The notes below the pieces were generated by a model. The model made no database searches and was not told where the DNA came from. It saw only the letters and a list, made by a program, of their open reading frames with translations. A program made the translations under genes and the position numbers. Shown in pieces: positions 9,137 to 13,670 of a DNA stretch of 64,000 nt. Each line of letters starts with the position of its first letter. Position 1 is the stretch's first letter. Source of the DNA: Streptacidiphilus albus JL83 (GTDB taxonomy: Bacteria > Actinomycetota > Actinomycetes > Streptomycetales > Streptomycetaceae); NCBI RefSeq assembly GCF_000744705.1, contig NZ_JQML01000001.1, positions 8,628,017 to 8,692,016 on the forward strand. Direction: 5' to 3'.

Positions 9137-9286
9137 TTGGACGGCGTCTTGGTGCGCCTTGCGGTCGGCCTCGGCCTTCTGCACGCGGGGACGGGGTACC
9201 GCCTGCTGGGTATGGCGCTGCGCCGCTGGGACGAGGGGCGGAAGACGTGGGTGCGCGACGGGGAGGACTTCGCCGAAGGGCACTAG
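9137..9286 (+). CDS. Small hypothetical protein at the island edge
   Basis: A 49-residue frame (start TTG, GGGGGA 6 nt upstream) reading LVRLAVGLGLLHAGTGYRLL in the middle, then an Arg/Trp/Asp-rich tail ending DFAEGH. Codon third positions are GC-rich, so it is probably translated. It may instead be the 3' fragment of a larger gene. Its stop codon overlaps the stop of the converging XRE regulator. No family recognised. Confidence 0.35.
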   Translation: MDGVLVRLAVGLGLLHAGTGYRLLGMALRRWDEGRKTWVRDGEDFAEGH

Positions 9287-10476
9287 GCCAACCCGGACCG
9301 CTTCGCCATCGCCACCAGCTCGGGCCTGGAACGCTGGTGCATGACCATCAAGACCCGCACGACCTCGCGCGCCATGGGGTGCACTTCGGCCATCTGCGGT
9401 GCCACCCGGAACGCTTCCTTCAGGGCCTCTTCGGCTCCGCTCAGGTTGTCCAGGGCGAGCCGGGCACGGGCGGTGTCGATGTAGAGCCGCCCCGTCCGGT
9501 TGGGCGTCAGCCCGGCCGGAGGCTTGCGCAGCAGCGGGGTTGCCAGGTCGTCAGCCTCTTGCGGGTTGCCCAGCTCGATATGGGCGGCGAGCTGGTACAG
9601 GACGGTGTTCCCCGCACCGAACGTCAGGTTATGCCGCAGCACGTCCTTCGGTGCATTGAGCCGGCGGGCAAGCTCCGCCGCGTGGGTAGCGTGCGCCTCA
9701 GTTGCGAGCTTGTCCTTCGCACGGGAGGCCAAGACCACCCCACGAAGGTGTAGAGACCCCAGAGGCACTAGCTTCTCCGGCCCCATCTCTTCACCGCGTG
9801 AAGCCGACTCGAACTGCACGATGGCCCGGTCTACAACCGCCAGGCCGTCCCCGTAGTCCCCAGCGCTCTGGTAGGTCCCGGCCTCGTTCCACGCCGTTGC
9901 GGCCTCGGCCTCAGGGTTCCACGTCTGGTGGGAAGCCCAGGCTTGCCGGGACACGACCATCTCCGCGAGGTCCGGCTGCCCGAGGCGGTGCGCAACGGCG
10001 TAGGCGCACCCGTAGGCGTCGGCCACCTGTCCCCACGCGACCGCATCGCCGTCCGAGGCGTAGGCAGTGGCCGTCGCCTCACCCAGCAGCCTCGGGAGCA
10101 CACGCAGCATCTCCGAGTAATGCGTTCCCGTCCGCAGCTCAGCCAACTTAGCCAGGCTCGCGGCCAGTTGATCCGGGGCGGGCACGTCGAACTTCGGCAG
10201 GTTGTACCGGCGGACAGCTCCGCGCAGGTTTTCCAGGTGGGCCCCCTGCTCATTGGGGGCCGCGAAGGGCTGACCATAGATCCGCGCAGTAGACACCCGC
10301 AGCGCCTTCGCGGCAGCAGCCACTATCGGCGGGGTCGCGGGGCGCAGTCCCACCTCGATCTTGCTGAGGTAGGACACGGTGATGCCCATCTCTCGGGCAA
10401 GACGAGCCTGGCTGAGATCCCGGGCCTTCCGCAGGACCGCGATGTTCTCACCAGCGGTCGGCTCTGTGCTTTCCAT
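9283..10476 (-). CDS. XRE-family HTH regulator with TPR-like C-terminus
   Basis: Product of 397 residues. The helix-turn-helix is at about 8-62 (ENIAVLRKARDLSQARLAREMGI, then SYLSKIEVGLRPAT). The remaining ~330 residues form helical TPR-like repeats such as ATAWNEAGTYQSAGDYGDGLAV and ARARLALDNLSGAEEALKEA. This HTH-TPR architecture is common in actinobacterial regulators of cryptic or developmental clusters, where the repeats may bind a peptide. ATG 10476 is preferred to the upstream frame start 10506. It diverges from the micro-gene operon that ends in the RiPP-like pair and is probably its dedicated regulator. Confidence 0.85.
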   Translation of the reverse strand: MESTEPTAGENIAVLRKARDLSQARLAREMGITVSYLSKIEVGLRPATPPIVAAAAKALRVSTARIYGQPFAAPNEQGAHLENLRGAVRRYNLPKFDVPAPDQLAASLAKLAELRTGTHYSEMLRVLPRLLGEATATAYASDGDAVAWGQVADAYGCAYAVAHRLGQPDLAEMVVSRQAWASHQTWNPEAEAATAWNEAGTYQSAGDYGDGLAVVDRAIVQFESASRGEEMGPEKLVPLGSLHLRGVVLASRAKDKLATEAHATHAAELARRLNAPKDVLRHNLTFGAGNTVLYQLAAHIELGNPQEADDLATPLLRKPPAGLTPNRTGRLYIDTARARLALDNLSGAEEALKEAFRVAPQMAEVHPMAREVVRVLMVMHQRSRPELVAMAKRSGLA

Positions 10477-10507
10477 ATGATCAGCGTTCCACTTCTGGTG
10501 TGTCACC

Positions 10508-10557: not shown

Positions 10558-10613
10558 TGATCTTGCTGGGCTGTCGTTGACTGGTTGTCAGGCAAAGAGA
10601 ACGGAGAGTGGCT

Positions 10614-10736
10614 ATGGCAACGAGCACCAACGGCCCGCAGGCCAAGGATAAGGGCAGGTCGGCCCGCGCGCAGTTAGCTAAGGCTGCCCTGGCGGGGCAG
10701 CGGGAAACCATCGCGGAAGTCGGGTGGTCGCTGTGA
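10614..10736 (+). CDS. 40-residue basic micro-protein, first gene of the island operon
   Basis: Short Lys/Arg/Ala-rich protein (ATSTNGPQAKDKGRSARAQL, then AKAALAGQRETIAEVGWSL). ATG 10614 is preceded by GGAG at a 7-nt spacing. Its stop overlaps the next start (TGATG at 10734-10738), so the two are translationally coupled. It is too short for a family call, and the basic helix could bind nucleic acid or act as a small regulator. Confidence 0.5.
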   Translation: MATSTNGPQAKDKGRSARAQLAKAALAGQRETIAEVGWSL

Positions 10737-10933
10737 TGCGGCTCCGCGTGTACGTGATCAACCGCGAGACGGGCGCAACGCGGGAGCTGCGTGTCATGGA
10801 GTACGAGCCCACGGGCTTCGTGAACCTGTTCGGGTCAGAGGCGCTTCTCCCCTGCCACTGCCCGACGTGCCAGCCGGCCCGCCCCATCGACGCCCGCGCC
10901 GAACGCCGAGCCCTTGAGGCGAGGGCGTCGTGA
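10736..10933 (+). CDS. 65-residue Cys-cluster micro-protein
   Basis: Begins MRLRVYVINRETG and contains LLPCHCPTCQ in the middle, a C-x-C-x2-C cluster suggestive of metal binding, followed by an Arg/Ala-rich tail. ATG 10736 overlaps the previous stop, although an in-frame GTG at 10724 is possible. Its own stop overlaps the next GTG start (GTGA). Unknown family. Confidence 0.5.
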   Translation: MRLRVYVINRETGATRELRVMEYEPTGFVNLFGSEALLPCHCPTCQPARPIDARAERRALEARAS

Positions 10934-11085
10934 CAACCACCGTGGGCCTGCCCCGCTGGCAGCGGGCTGAGCGCATCCGGATCGGGATGCAGACTAACCG
11001 CGAGTACGCCAGAGCGCTCAAGGCCCGGTGCGCGCGGGCCGAGGCCGATCACCGGTCCCGGCTCGCCGAGTGGGTGAGCGCATGA
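10930..11085 (+). CDS. 51-residue helical basic micro-protein
   Basis: Starts at GTG 10930 in a GTGA overlap with the previous gene and ends in an ATGA overlap with the next. The product (TTTVGLPRWQRAERIRIGMQ..., ending HRSRLAEWVSA) is Arg-rich and predicted helical. No family is recognised. The overlaps on both sides are the main evidence that it is a real gene. Confidence 0.45.
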   Translation: MTTTVGLPRWQRAERIRIGMQTNREYARALKARCARAEADHRSRLAEWVSA

Positions 11086-11282
11086 GCTGGCTTGAACGGG
11101 AGACTGGTGGTCAGCAGGACATTGTGACACGTGGTCAGTGCTTTCTCTGTGACCGGTACTACGGCGCGCGGGACCTGGCCATCTGCCTCGGCGACGTCCA
11201 CGAGCTGGCGTCGGCGCAGAAGCGGATCGCCATCCACATGTCGGCCGTGTACCACCTGGACGCCCCCAGCCTCGCCTGGTGA
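11082..11282 (+). CDS. 66-residue micro-protein with CxxC
   Basis: ATG 11082 overlaps the preceding stop by four bases. The product contains RGQCFLCDRYYGARDLAICL, a CxxC pair with further Cys nearby, then a short helical region with a conserved-looking HELASAQKRIAIHM. It could be a half zinc ribbon. It belongs to the same coupled operon; function unknown. Confidence 0.5.
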   Translation: MSWLERETGGQQDIVTRGQCFLCDRYYGARDLAICLGDVHELASAQKRIAIHMSAVYHLDAPSLAW

Positions 11283-11377
11283 GTCCCCACCGACTCGCGC
11301 CACCCGGTCGTGGTCCCCCCACGGCGCGGCCGGGGGCGGGACACCAAGACTCCACGATCGAACTGGGAACACGGGGC

Positions 11378-11641
11378 ATGGACGACCAGACCGAATACAG
11401 CACCAAGGCGCGCCCGCAGGCGGCGACAGACCGGACCTACGTGGCGCGGCTGGACTTCCTCACCGCCATGCATCTACTCCGTCTGGAGGCGGCTGACGCT
11501 GCCGTCGTGGTGAACTCCGTTGGAGAGGACCACATCCGAATCGGAATCGTGACTGTCCCTGTTCCGGAGACGGTCACGGAGGCGCTGAAGCTGCTTCACA
11601 AGGCCCGCGCAACCGGCCGGGATAGGAACCACGGCGGATGA
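11378..11641 (+). CDS. 87-residue hypothetical protein
   Basis: Product begins MDDQTEYSTKARPQAATDRT and continues with an alpha/beta-like segment (LTAMHLLRLEAADAAVVVNS, EDHIRIGIVTVPVPETV). I place the start at ATG 11378. An in-frame GTG at 11279 would couple it directly to the previous gene but adds a Pro/Arg-rich stretch that looks non-coding. Its stop overlaps the next ATG (ATGA). No family recognised. Confidence 0.45.
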   Translation: MDDQTEYSTKARPQAATDRTYVARLDFLTAMHLLRLEAADAAVVVNSVGEDHIRIGIVTVPVPETVTEALKLLHKARATGRDRNHGG

Positions 11642-11904
11642 TCTCTATCGATCTAGGTGTACAGCAGCGAAGCGTGGCCGAGGAGGATGCCCGACTCTGG
11701 GGCACGAACTTCTGCTGGTTCTGCCTCGAATGGCTGCCGGTCCGATACCTCGGCCCGATCCATACGCCGGGTGGCACGGCCCCCGTCTCCGGGTGCGCGC
11801 CCTGCTTGGAGCCCCGTCTCCAGATGGCTGCGGACTACGCCGCTCAACCCGACGTCGCCGTACTCAACTACCCGGAGCACGCGCGGAGGGAACAGCAGGT
11901 ATGA
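11638..11904 (+). CDS. 88-residue zinc-ribbon-like hypothetical protein
   Basis: Starts in an ATGA overlap at 11638. Two Cys pairs, CWFC (around 26) and CAPC (around 53), spaced by about 27 residues suggest a zinc ribbon. The C-terminal part is helical (AADYAAQPDVAVLNYPEHAR). It sits in the middle of the micro-gene train, and its stop overlaps the next ATG at 11901. Confidence 0.55.
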   Translation: MISIDLGVQQRSVAEEDARLWGTNFCWFCLEWLPVRYLGPIHTPGGTAPVSGCAPCLEPRLQMAADYAAQPDVAVLNYPEHARREQQV

Positions 11905-12494
11905 GAGACCCTGACAAGCGCCGTATCCCGCAGGCGATTTGGGACGCGACCAAGACCGCATGCGGAGGCCCCCGCCCGGCGTCTCTGTCCTGGCCGGCCG
12001 AGGCTGCACCACCCACCTACCATCCGAAAGGCGCGAACCAATGTGCGGAACCTGCGGAAAGCCCTGCTTCATTGGCCCTGATGGGCAGCGCTGGTGTCCA
12101 ACCCACGGCCCGCAGTAGCCCCATGATCGGCCCCGGCTGTCCGCCTCCCCCGTGGCGGATTGGCTGGGGGCTCCCCAGGAATCCTGCACCGGCCACGCGG
12201 CTGTCCACCGTGGACCGGGGCGGGCACCAACTCCGGCGGGCGATCCCGCCGGGGCACGACGTCGCCCGACGTACCCATAGGGGTTCGAGGCGACCAAGCA
12301 CCCCCCGGTACGCAACCGCGCGCCGGGACGACCAGCACGGAGGTAGAGAAGATGGACGGCGGCGGACACGGCGGCGGCTCGGGCGACGGCAAGGGCGGCG
12401 GCCAGCAGGACGACAGCAACAGCGGCGCGGGCCACGGCGGCGGCTCCGACGAGGGTGGCAACACGAGCGACGGCCAGGGCCCGGCGACCGGTAG
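11901..12494 (+). CDS. Doubtful ORF, probably only its N-terminal part coding
   Basis: An ATG overlapping the previous stop opens a frame beginning MRDPDKRRIPQAIWDATKTA that stays open to 12494. After about 50 codons the composition turns Arg/Pro-rich and it overlaps two better-supported genes in other frames (12041-12118 and 12352-12498). The most likely explanations are a short real protein whose stop was lost or a frameshift. Treat the 3' boundary as unknown. Confidence 0.25.
   Translation: MRDPDKRRIPQAIWDATKTACGGPRPASLSWPAEAAPPTYHPKGANQCAEPAESPASLALMGSAGVQPTARSSPMIGPGCPPPPWRIGWGLPRNPAPATRLSTVDRGGHQLRRAIPPGHDVARRTHRGSRRPSTPRYATARRDDQHGGREDGRRRTRRRLGRRQGRRPAGRQQQRRGPRRRLRRGWQHERRPGPGDR
12041..12118 (+). 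CDS. 25-residue Cys/His-rich micro-protein
   Basis: A 25-codon ORF preceded by GAAAGGCG reads MCGTCGKPCFIGPDGQRWC followed by PTHGPQ. The C-x2-C...C-x9-C-x2-H spacing looks like a minimal zinc-binding knuckle, so chance is unlikely despite the tiny size. It lies just upstream of the RiPP-like precursor in the same operon. Function unknown. Confidence 0.4.
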   Translation: MCGTCGKPCFIGPDGQRWCPTHGPQ

Positions 12495-12498
12495 ATGA
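12352..12498 (+). CDS. Candidate RiPP precursor: Gly/Asp/Ser-rich 48-residue peptide
   Basis: A perfect GGAGGT ribosome-binding site 7 nt upstream of ATG 12352 and an ATGA overlap with the methyltransferase start argue for real, high-level translation. The peptide is about 40% Gly, with six Asp and several Ser, Gln and Asn but no Cys. It contains GGGSGDGKGGGQQDDSNSG and then HGGGSDEGGNTSDGQG. Asp followed by Gly or Ser is the favoured context for methylation and collapse to aspartimide. Together with a stand-alone PIMT-like methyltransferase this matches the two-gene logic of imiditides. No leader/core boundary or protease gene is visible. The product class is inference; the coupling is seen. 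Confidence 0.6.
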   Translation: MDGGGHGGGSGDGKGGGQQDDSNSGAGHGGGSDEGGNTSDGQGPATGR

Positions 12499-13670
12499 CC
12501 GAGACGCATGAGGAGGCGGGCCCCCAGGGGCTCGCCTCCGCGCTGGTGGCCAGCGGCGCGCTTTCATCGGACTGGCTCCCGACCTTCAACGCCGTACCGC
12601 GTGAGCTGTTCGTGCCGGATCGCATCTGGCCGGGCATCGCGGATGGCACCAAGCAGAACCCAGTAGTCGATCGGTGGGAGGACGCGGCGGCCTGGCGAGG
12701 GGCGGTCTACTCGGACATCCCGCTCACCACTCAGTGGGACGACGGCGACCACGACGGGGACGGCCTCGGCACGACGCCGAGTTCGTCCAACTCCCTGCCG
12801 AGCATGGTGTTCACCATGCTGCAAGACCTGGACGTCCGGCCCGGTGACCGGGTGTTGGAGATTGGAACCGGGACGGGGTGGAACGCGGCCCTTCTGGCTC
12901 ACCGGGTCGGGGACGCCAACGTGGTGTCGGTCGAGTTCGACGCTGAGGTTGCCCGGGGCGCGAAGGCGAACCTCGGCAGGGCACGGCGAGACCCGGCCGT
13001 GGTTGTGGCAGACGGCCGGGCGGGGTGGGTCATGCGCTCGCCGTACGATCGCCTGATCGCGACATGCTCTGTGCTGGAGATTCCTCCGGCCTGGCTGGAG
13101 CAGATGGCCCCGGGCGGGGTGATCGTCGCCCCGTTCGGTACCGAGTACGGCGGCGAGCACATCGTGCAGCTGACAGTCAGCGGCGACGGGACCGAGGCAC
13201 GCGGAAGGTTCACCCGTAGCTCTGCATTCATGAGGATCCGTCAACAGCGCACGGAGCGGCCACTCTTCGCGGAGTACCTTCACGGCGCGAAGTGGCCGGC
13301 CGGGGCGACCCGGACCACGACCAAGCTCCGCCCCCCGGACACCGGCGGATGGCTCGCTCAGTTCGTCATCGGGGCCGGGGTGCCCGCCGCGTTTTGGCGG
13401 CGGGAGCAGTACGAGAACGGCGCGTACACGCTCTGGCTCTACAGCCGGGACACGCTCTCATGGGCTACCGCCGACCACATACCTGACCGCACCGAGTACG
13501 AGGTGTACCAGTCCGGCCCGCGCAAGCTGTGGGACGAAGTGGAAGCCGCCTACCACTGGTGGGCCGAGCGGGACCGACCCAGCTACGAGCGGTTCGGGCT
13601 GACAGTCAGCCCGGACGGGCAACAGCTCTGGCTCGACACGCCGGACAACCCCGTCCCTCAGCAGCACTGA
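12495..13670 (+). CDS. PIMT-like O-methyltransferase of RiPP type
   Basis: Product of 391 residues, about twice the length of a housekeeping protein-L-isoaspartate methyltransferase. After an N-terminal helix set (TFNAVPRELFVPDRIWPG) and the SSNSLPSMV substrate-loop region (around 97), the SAM-binding motif I is VLEIGTGTGWNAALL (around 120), with VSVEFDAEVA and the later Rossmann strands following. A C-terminal extension of some 150 residues ends with ERFGLTVSPDGQQLWLD. I associate that extension with peptide-modifying PIMT homologues of lanthipeptide, graspetide and imiditide clusters. Expected chemistry is methylation of a precursor Asp side chain, leading to aspartimide. It is translationally coupled to the 48-residue peptide. 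No dehydratase, cyclase or ATP-grasp gene is nearby. Confidence 0.82.
   Translation: MTETHEEAGPQGLASALVASGALSSDWLPTFNAVPRELFVPDRIWPGIADGTKQNPVVDRWEDAAAWRGAVYSDIPLTTQWDDGDHDGDGLGTTPSSSNSLPSMVFTMLQDLDVRPGDRVLEIGTGTGWNAALLAHRVGDANVVSVEFDAEVARGAKANLGRARRDPAVVVADGRAGWVMRSPYDRLIATCSVLEIPPAWLEQMAPGGVIVAPFGTEYGGEHIVQLTVSGDGTEARGRFTRSSAFMRIRQQRTERPLFAEYLHGAKWPAGATRTTTKLRPPDTGGWLAQFVIGAGVPAAFWRREQYENGAYTLWLYSRDTLSWATADHIPDRTEYEVYQSGPRKLWDEVEAAYHWWAERDRPSYERFGLTVSPDGQQLWLDTPDNPVPQQH

Follow-up and report, generated by a model that had tools for sequence, protein, structure and literature searches.

A two-gene locus of Streptacidiphilus albus JL83 as a probable type I pamtide (imiditide) module of a proline-poor subfamily

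Why does the gene for a small, glycine-rich peptide run directly into the gene for a stand-alone methyltransferase? The question is raised by a locus of Streptacidiphilus albus JL83 (NCBI RefSeq assembly GCF_000744705.1), within a stretch of 64,000 nucleotides (nt), here called the window, that covers positions 8,628,017 to 8,692,016 of contig NZ_JQML01000001.1 on the forward strand (8.63 to 8.69 Mb on a single 9.9-Mb contig). An earlier reading made from the letters alone (the sequence-only reading) had taken the two genes for an imiditide-like pair, the precursor and modifying enzyme of a ribosomally synthesized and posttranslationally modified peptide (RiPP) that carries an aspartimide. We present here a computational follow-up. 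Sequence comparison makes it likely, in our view, that the two genes form a type I pamtide (imiditide) module, within a distinct subfamily poor in proline, and that the enzyme modifies one Asp of the peptide. The parts of the pair, in window positions, are the following.

12352 to 12498, + strand: precursor peptide gene, 48 amino acids (aa), MDGGGHGGGSGDGKGGGQQDDSNSGAGHGGGSDEGGNTSDGQGPATGR, with start ATG at 12352 and stop TGA at 12496 to 12498; recognized by its sequence and by its relatives beside the methyltransferases of the clade described below.
12339 to 12344, + strand: ribosome-binding site GGAGGT, 7 nt 5′ of the precursor ATG.
12406 to 12483, + strand: conserved precursor block, residues 19 to 44, QDDSNSGAGHGGGSDEGGNTSDGQGP, from the column table of 61 aligned precursors; probable core.
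12409 to 12414, + strand: Asp20-Asp21, the most conserved Asp pair; proposed site of methylation and aspartimide formation.
12495 to 12498, + strand: ATGA stop/start overlap of the precursor and methyltransferase genes, read from the sequence; predicted to couple their translation.
12495 to 13670, + strand: PAMT/PIMT-type O-methyltransferase, 391 aa, from PF01135, TIGR04188 (below cut-off), an AlphaFold model, and a match to 1DL5.
12858 to 12878, + strand: motif I, EIGTGTG, residues 122 to 128, for binding of S-adenosylmethionine (SAM), from the methyltransferase sequence.
13242 to 13667, + strand: C-terminal domain of the methyltransferase (residues from about 250 on), which PIMT of the Escherichia coli type lacks and 1DL5 has.
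13560 to 13580, + strand: WAERDRP at the WXXXGXP position, with Gly replaced by Asp in the window copy, from motif comparison across the DD-Gly and Pro/Gly enzymes.

These parts bear out what had been read earlier. Sequence and translations agree on a Gly/Asp/Ser-rich open reading frame (ORF) of 48 residues with a perfect GGAGGT and an ATGA overlap, and the methyltransferase has the length, the motif I, and the C-terminal extension ascribed to it. The peptide had been called almost half Gly and free of Cys, and a recount gives 21 Gly, 6 Asp, 5 Ser, 1 Pro, and no Cys among 48 residues.

The methyltransferase matches PF01135 at 1.8e-30, and its best curated model is TIGR04188 (graspetide methyltransferase), at 318 bits against a cut-off of 380. 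Its AlphaFold model (mean predicted local distance difference test score [pLDDT], 94.1) aligns over residues 9 to 382 with the Thermotoga PIMT 1DL5 (Z, 25.2; root mean square deviation, 5.6; 309 residues; 24% identity). Most other solved PIMTs listed align only to residues 246 to 259, and 1vbf aligns to residue 344. By this alignment of a predicted model, the window enzyme has the C-terminal domain that Lee et al. (2023, PMC10787088) report for 80% of the PIMT clade associated with RiPPs. The PIMT core, the additional C-terminal domain, and the two-gene architecture together support the imiditide-like pair proposed earlier.

The second line of evidence is conservation of the pair. The two closest enzymes from the same genus, 68% and 66% identical to that of the window, are each accompanied, at the same site, by a nearly identical peptide of 49 aa. 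Relatives of the enzyme at 1e-60 occur in at least 159 of 394 genomes of the family, with at most four candidates scored per genome. In all, 107 loci were collected: 80 in score order among the matches listed, 20 picked by hand, and seven gathered beforehand. A partial match in one genome (G113) and a locus already among the seven (L013) were left out of the score-ordered set, and the other matches in the window's own genome (L004 to L008 and three without loci) were excluded from the 107. All loci with at least 52.9% identity to the window enzyme, 66 in number, form one clade in a quick IQ-TREE tree (Shimodaira-Hasegawa approximate likelihood ratio test support, 99), from which one locus on a truncated contig (L142) was excluded. 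The peptide lies directly upstream of the methyltransferase in 61 of these 66 loci. A second set of 55 loci at ≥52% identity added 35 new ones, assigned by identity only and kept off the tree; 32 of them have a peptide with QDD, and in L147, L165, and L191 the peptide has undergone deletion or substitution, so that 96 of 101 loci carry the peptide. Three precursors (L056, L083, and L088) were missed by the regular expression and added by eye, the ORF listed for L104 is spurious and was counted as no precursor, the peptide printed for L119 is in the wrong frame, and two regular-expression matches below 52% identity (L218 and L219) are false.

A profile of the peptide was also searched against six frames of 30 whole genomes. 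It gave 17 matches, all 17 of which lie 3 to 29 nt upstream of a clade enzyme, and none in the 10 genomes that had no enzyme match at 1e-60 (seven with all candidates scored and three with only four candidates each). The pairing of peptide and enzyme is not chance. The sequence-only reading had asked whether Gly-rich ORFs recur beside homologues of the enzyme, as these counts say they do, and had named homologues consistently lacking a short Asp-containing ORF as evidence against itself; in the clade such an ORF is the rule. One pair lies on a plasmid (NZ_CP108097.1), where it is annotated as a hypothetical protein and a methyltransferase with a 4-nt overlap, next to a divergent helix-turn-helix gene. 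Two further arrangements were observed: one locus (L069) has a second PAMT, similar to that of L015, upstream at −4101 to −2970 (by eye), and one contig holds two PAMT genes (L087 and L106) whose starts are separated by about 11 kb and of which only one has a precursor.

The alignment of 61 precursors shows where the conservation lies. The N-terminal third is variable and takes two main forms, KHGGGxGxGxGG or AWWLTMADGGNP (AWWLTMAD type), and the remainder is conserved as QDDS(N/D/S)SG(N/A)(K/G)HGGGGSDEGGN(T/S)(S/N)DGxGPA. All 61 have Asp20; Asp21 and His28 each occur in 60, with one gap at His28. The earlier statement that no border between leader and core is visible is thereby resolved in part: the peptide does vary in its N-terminal third, and a conserved part from QDD onward, the probable core, emerges from the alignment. 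All four Gly codons are used at columns where Gly is fixed in the protein, which speaks for selection on the protein, and the ratio of nonsynonymous to synonymous substitution rates is 0.08 to 0.57 in nine hand-picked precursor pairs. No fixed acidic or basic residue is found at the N terminus of the 61 aligned peptides; the last aligned column is K in 19, R in 16, and a gap in 11, with other endings, E, S, H, and C among them. A single C-terminal Cys occurs in one of the 61 (L080). At an E value of 1, none of 48 peptides tested is recognized by a Pfam or NCBIfam model, and AlphaFold predicts no structure for the window peptide, which appears disordered (mean pLDDT, 53.3). One precursor (L141) appears by eye to be frameshifted relative to those of L108, L109, and L111.

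The subfamily is set apart by composition. Clade precursors average 33.5% Gly, 4.0% Pro, and 12.0% Asp with a charge of −3.4. For the 41 loci outside the clade the means, which include a few wrongly picked ORFs, are 21.7% Gly, 22.1% Pro, and 9.5% Asp with a charge of −1.7, and a script classed 37 of the 41 peptides as Pro/Gly-rich. Two of the loci outside the clade (L002 and L003) are in the window's own genome.

How, then, would the pair work? The peptide would be translated from its strong site and coupled translationally to the enzyme, whose added domain, thought to recognize the substrate, would bind it as a linear, disordered chain. A methyl group from SAM would pass to the side chain of one Asp, the ester would collapse to an aspartimide, and this would hydrolyze mainly to isoaspartate; methylation, aspartimide, and isoaspartate are all proposed by analogy with the characterized homologues SpaM and NmaM. 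The modified residue is most likely D20 or D21 of QDDS, a guess that favors these two because no other acidic residue is so conserved. The product may stay in the cell or leave by unlinked machinery, which again is a guess.

The kind of system is not new. A precursor plus a PAMT in two genes defines the type I pamtide, or imiditide (Lee et al. 2023, PMC10787088), and 1,414 of these have been predicted in published work, so a lone precursor with a methyltransferase is not itself surprising. Type I precursors are about 45 aa long and rich in Gly, Pro, and Asp, and the PAMT acts on the linear peptide (PMC10787088, PMC13001092). The proline-poor subfamily is not described separately in the texts consulted; the supplements of PMC10787088 (1,183 precursors) probably contain members of it, and it may be one of the several conservation patterns that Lee et al. 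mention (Figure S11a).

Several observations weigh against this assignment. The clade precursors are acidic and poor in Pro, and imiditides are described in a 2026 review as strongly positive and recognized by charge; the clade must therefore depart in part from this mode of recognition. Nor is any one Asp universal, because QDD is missing in L147 and altered in L165 and L191 and the L056 peptide is cut off after HGGGR. The clearest evidence against one universal modified site is L147, where the enzyme is retained and the peptide still has SDEGG and TSDG, QDD having been lost. Five of the 66 clade enzymes have no recognizable adjacent precursor (L054, L063, L074, L104, and L106), and the peptide profile finds no precursor anywhere in four genomes from among these five cases (G204, G264, G146, and G184). 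The window enzyme itself lacks the Gly of WXXXGXP, a motif of RiPP-associated PIMTs. Among DD-Gly enzymes 51 of 58 have this motif intact, as do 35 of the 37 in the Pro/Gly group. Loss of the Trp of this motif is reported to be tolerated by LihM and not by TceM; WXXXGXP is therefore not strictly required.

Two further ideas about the substrate were set aside. A metal hairpin of the type II pamtide kind, in which QDDS would be flanked by a pair of His-Gly arms, was rejected: the model is disordered, the first arm is absent in 23 of 61 precursors, and its His is Arg in 12. Covariation of charge, that of the precursor tending to drop where that of the enzyme goes up, was not used, since the Spearman coefficients ignore ancestry. 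Among 61 clade pairs they are −0.51 for the core and −0.36 for the C-terminal domain; among 36 other pairs they are −0.13 and −0.30, neither of which is significant.

Four other explanations were weighed, and the surroundings of the pair bear on the first. These comprise two features of the window.

9283 to 10506, − strand: divergent XRE-type regulator, 407 aa, with HTH_3 and, under the cut-off, weak TPR matches; it probably regulates the locus.
10608 to 11904, + strand: run of overlapping micro-ORFs between regulator and precursor, from the ORF list; of doubtful membership in the system.

XRE-type regulators with a DUF5753 domain recur at other loci, and the pair might be a portable partner of such regulators: it would sit in the DUF397 slot, without a conserved exporter or protease, and its aspartimide- or isoaspartate-containing peptide would act in the cell as a ligand of the regulator and would not be a secreted product. 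Counting was limited to loci with about 4.4 kb of upstream sequence (65 of 66 clade loci and 33 of 41 others). A DUF5753 regulator lies within that distance upstream in 50 of these 98 loci (35 of 65 in the clade and 15 of 33 outside it) against about 1.5% expected from 28 background genomes, which have 26.3 of these genes each on average, with the loci scored at 100 bits or more by a home-made profile and the background by Pfam at an E value of 0.001. Presence of DUF5753 changes 26 times by gain or loss on the enzyme tree, and the association is thus not one inherited arrangement. DUF397 stands directly behind none of the 25 same-strand DUF5753 genes that end ≤700 nt from the enzyme, compared with 10 of 42 for the remaining DUF5753 genes of the loci and 15 of 26 for those of the window's own genome; the p values (3e-6 and 0.01) are only rough, because strand and distance decided which 25 cases counted as close and the profiles differ (home-made for the loci, Pfam for the own genome). 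Downstream, about 1 kb was covered, with genes called by a simple rule on GC content at third codon positions that may give some false calls; no nearest gene is conserved there, 53 of 62 being on the opposite strand and the largest family having three members. Half of the loci, the window among them, have no DUF5753, however, and the association may reflect control of expression only. DUF5753 genes have moreover been noted in graspetide loci, and DUF397/DUF5753 pairs have been reported with graspetide groups 11 and 13, so the association extends an earlier observation and is not a discovery. We hold the regulatory role to be unlikely; if it were true, SAM-dependent isomerization of Asp in a disordered Gly-rich peptide would be a signaling step.

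Other upstream genes were counted as well. The two nearest upstream genes in the clade belong most often to three families, DUF5753 regulators, DUF6879 proteins, and other XRE regulators. XRE-type regulators of any of four home-made profiles lie upstream in 52 of 65 clade loci, a count without a background rate, and DUF6879 genes in 27 of 65 (home-made profile, checked with Pfam in two examples). The window regulator is likewise XRE-type and differs from the DUF5753 kind, having HTH_3 with weak TPR matches.

A second alternative keeps the enzyme and changes the role of the peptide, which would be a partner or regulator of the methyltransferase (a coupling ORF, an activator, or an inhibitor), the substrate being another cellular protein. 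The five enzymes without a recognizable precursor fit this idea, three of them (L063, L074, and L104) lying 25 to 68 nt behind a DUF5753 regulator ORF, and for the PAMTs of FHA clusters the suggested target is a protein, as opposed to a small peptide (Lee et al., PMC10787088). The regulator of L063 matches in two overlapping frames. Against it, conservation in the peptide is concentrated on the QDDS...DG stretch, the slot is filled by other peptides, rich in Pro, Gly, and Asp, beside PAMTs from outside the clade (the 37 of 41 classed by script), and modification by a PAMT has been proven for the type I precursor SpaA. We consider this alternative quite improbable.

It is very improbable that the locus is what remains of a group 13 graspetide cluster after loss of its ATP-grasp enzyme, even with TIGR04188 as the best curated model and another PAMT-like gene (L004) adjoining ATP-grasp fragments in the same genome. 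The score is below the TIGR04188 cut-off, the two-gene form is kept through the 66-locus clade, and the precursor has no pattern of decay. The graspetide ligase (TIGR04187) was not found near the window, own-genome fragments below cut-off lying only at 0.48 Mb with the window at 8.6 Mb; distant ATP-grasp genes at the other clade loci were not searched. The L004 gene itself (483501 to 484788 in the genome) stands beside two short ATP-grasp fragments below cut-off, about 2.5 kb from a DUF5753/DUF397 pair, and may be a broken graspetide locus. Finally, an ordinary protein-repair PIMT behind a chance low-complexity ORF, as the PIMT core fold and the ease with which Gly-rich ORFs arise in GC-rich DNA might suggest, is already contradicted by the comparison, in which 61 of 66 loci keep both the site and the sequence of the ORF, codons at fixed Gly columns change synonymously, and the profile of the ORF matches nowhere else in 30 genomes.

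The region upstream of the pair contains further small ORFs. The peptide had been placed at the end of a micro-gene operon; overlapping micro-ORFs are indeed present upstream, and about 450 nt separate the end of their run from the precursor gene, so the description is only loosely right. One 66-aa ORF of the run (10733 to 10930, + strand) has four matches in its own genome, one being itself and one lying beside a paralogous PAMT; the best match apart from itself (60%) closely precedes the precursor gene of L002, a paralogous PAMT. A 25-aa Cys/His micro-ORF (12041 to 12118, + strand), MCGTCGKPCFIGPDGQRWCPTHGPQ, has a zinc-ribbon-like pattern with a central GPDG, loosely like a type II pamtide, and was considered as a second, type II-like precursor. 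It was set aside: a scan of the 107 loci with a loose Cys/His pattern gave no copy of it elsewhere, and all matches in 40 other genomes have E values of 0.02 or weaker. What the scan did reveal were small Cys-rich ORFs of other kinds, a short way upstream of the enzyme in L076, L085, L003, and L012, and matches in L071, L072, L111, and L132 that look like wrong frames. The ORFs of L076 (about −420 from the enzyme start) and L085 (about −293) are related, with several CxxC pairs (CGTCAGHREIWCPLC type), and lie just upstream of the Gly-rich precursor. The neighbors of the pair scanned with Pfam are ordinary and include no RiPP enzyme of another class; LanB/LanC, lasso, and azoline enzymes were not searched with their own models.

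Connecting aspartimide peptides to a biological function has been called the bigger challenge (2026 review). The subfamily offers a sharply defined set of substrates, 96 precursor-enzyme pairs and the natural deletion variants L056, L088, L147, and L165, which may serve to map the modified Asp and to study recognition of an acidic, proline-poor linear peptide. The recurring regulator neighbor makes one functional hypothesis directly testable.

Among known systems, the Thermotoga maritima PIMT 1DL5, a protein-repair enzyme that is not known to have a coupled peptide gene, shares the full-length fold with the C-terminal domain at 24% identity. Group 13 graspetides (graspimiditides) are alike in having TIGR04188 as the closest curated model and, as reported, DUF5753/DUF397 neighbors; they differ from the window pair, which has no ATP-grasp enzyme nearby and scores below the model's cut-off. 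Type II pamtides, or cysimiditides (FcaA-FcaM), also have a PAMT as the sole enzyme, and in part of the clade the Asp similarly lies between two Gly-rich arms; this is only a loose analogy, because the first arm is so often absent, and the window precursor lacks the Cys, the zinc motif, and the CxxCxGxG-Asp-CxxCxGxG arrangement. Type I pamtides are closest. Their published precursors average 17.3% Gly and 16.8% Pro and mostly have conserved acidic or basic residues at the N and C termini (Lee et al., PMC10787088), whereas the clade is richer in Gly (33.5%) and much poorer in Pro (4.0%), is acidic where imiditides are strongly positive, has its own QDDS/HGGGGSDEGG block, and has an altered WXXXGXP in the window copy. 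With SpaA-SpaM of Streptomyces sparsogenes and NmaA-NmaM of Nonomuraea maritima, the locus shares two genes, a precursor of about 45 aa, a stand-alone PAMT with a C-terminal domain and no cyclase, a conserved Asp near Gly, and a type that is frequent in Streptomyces.

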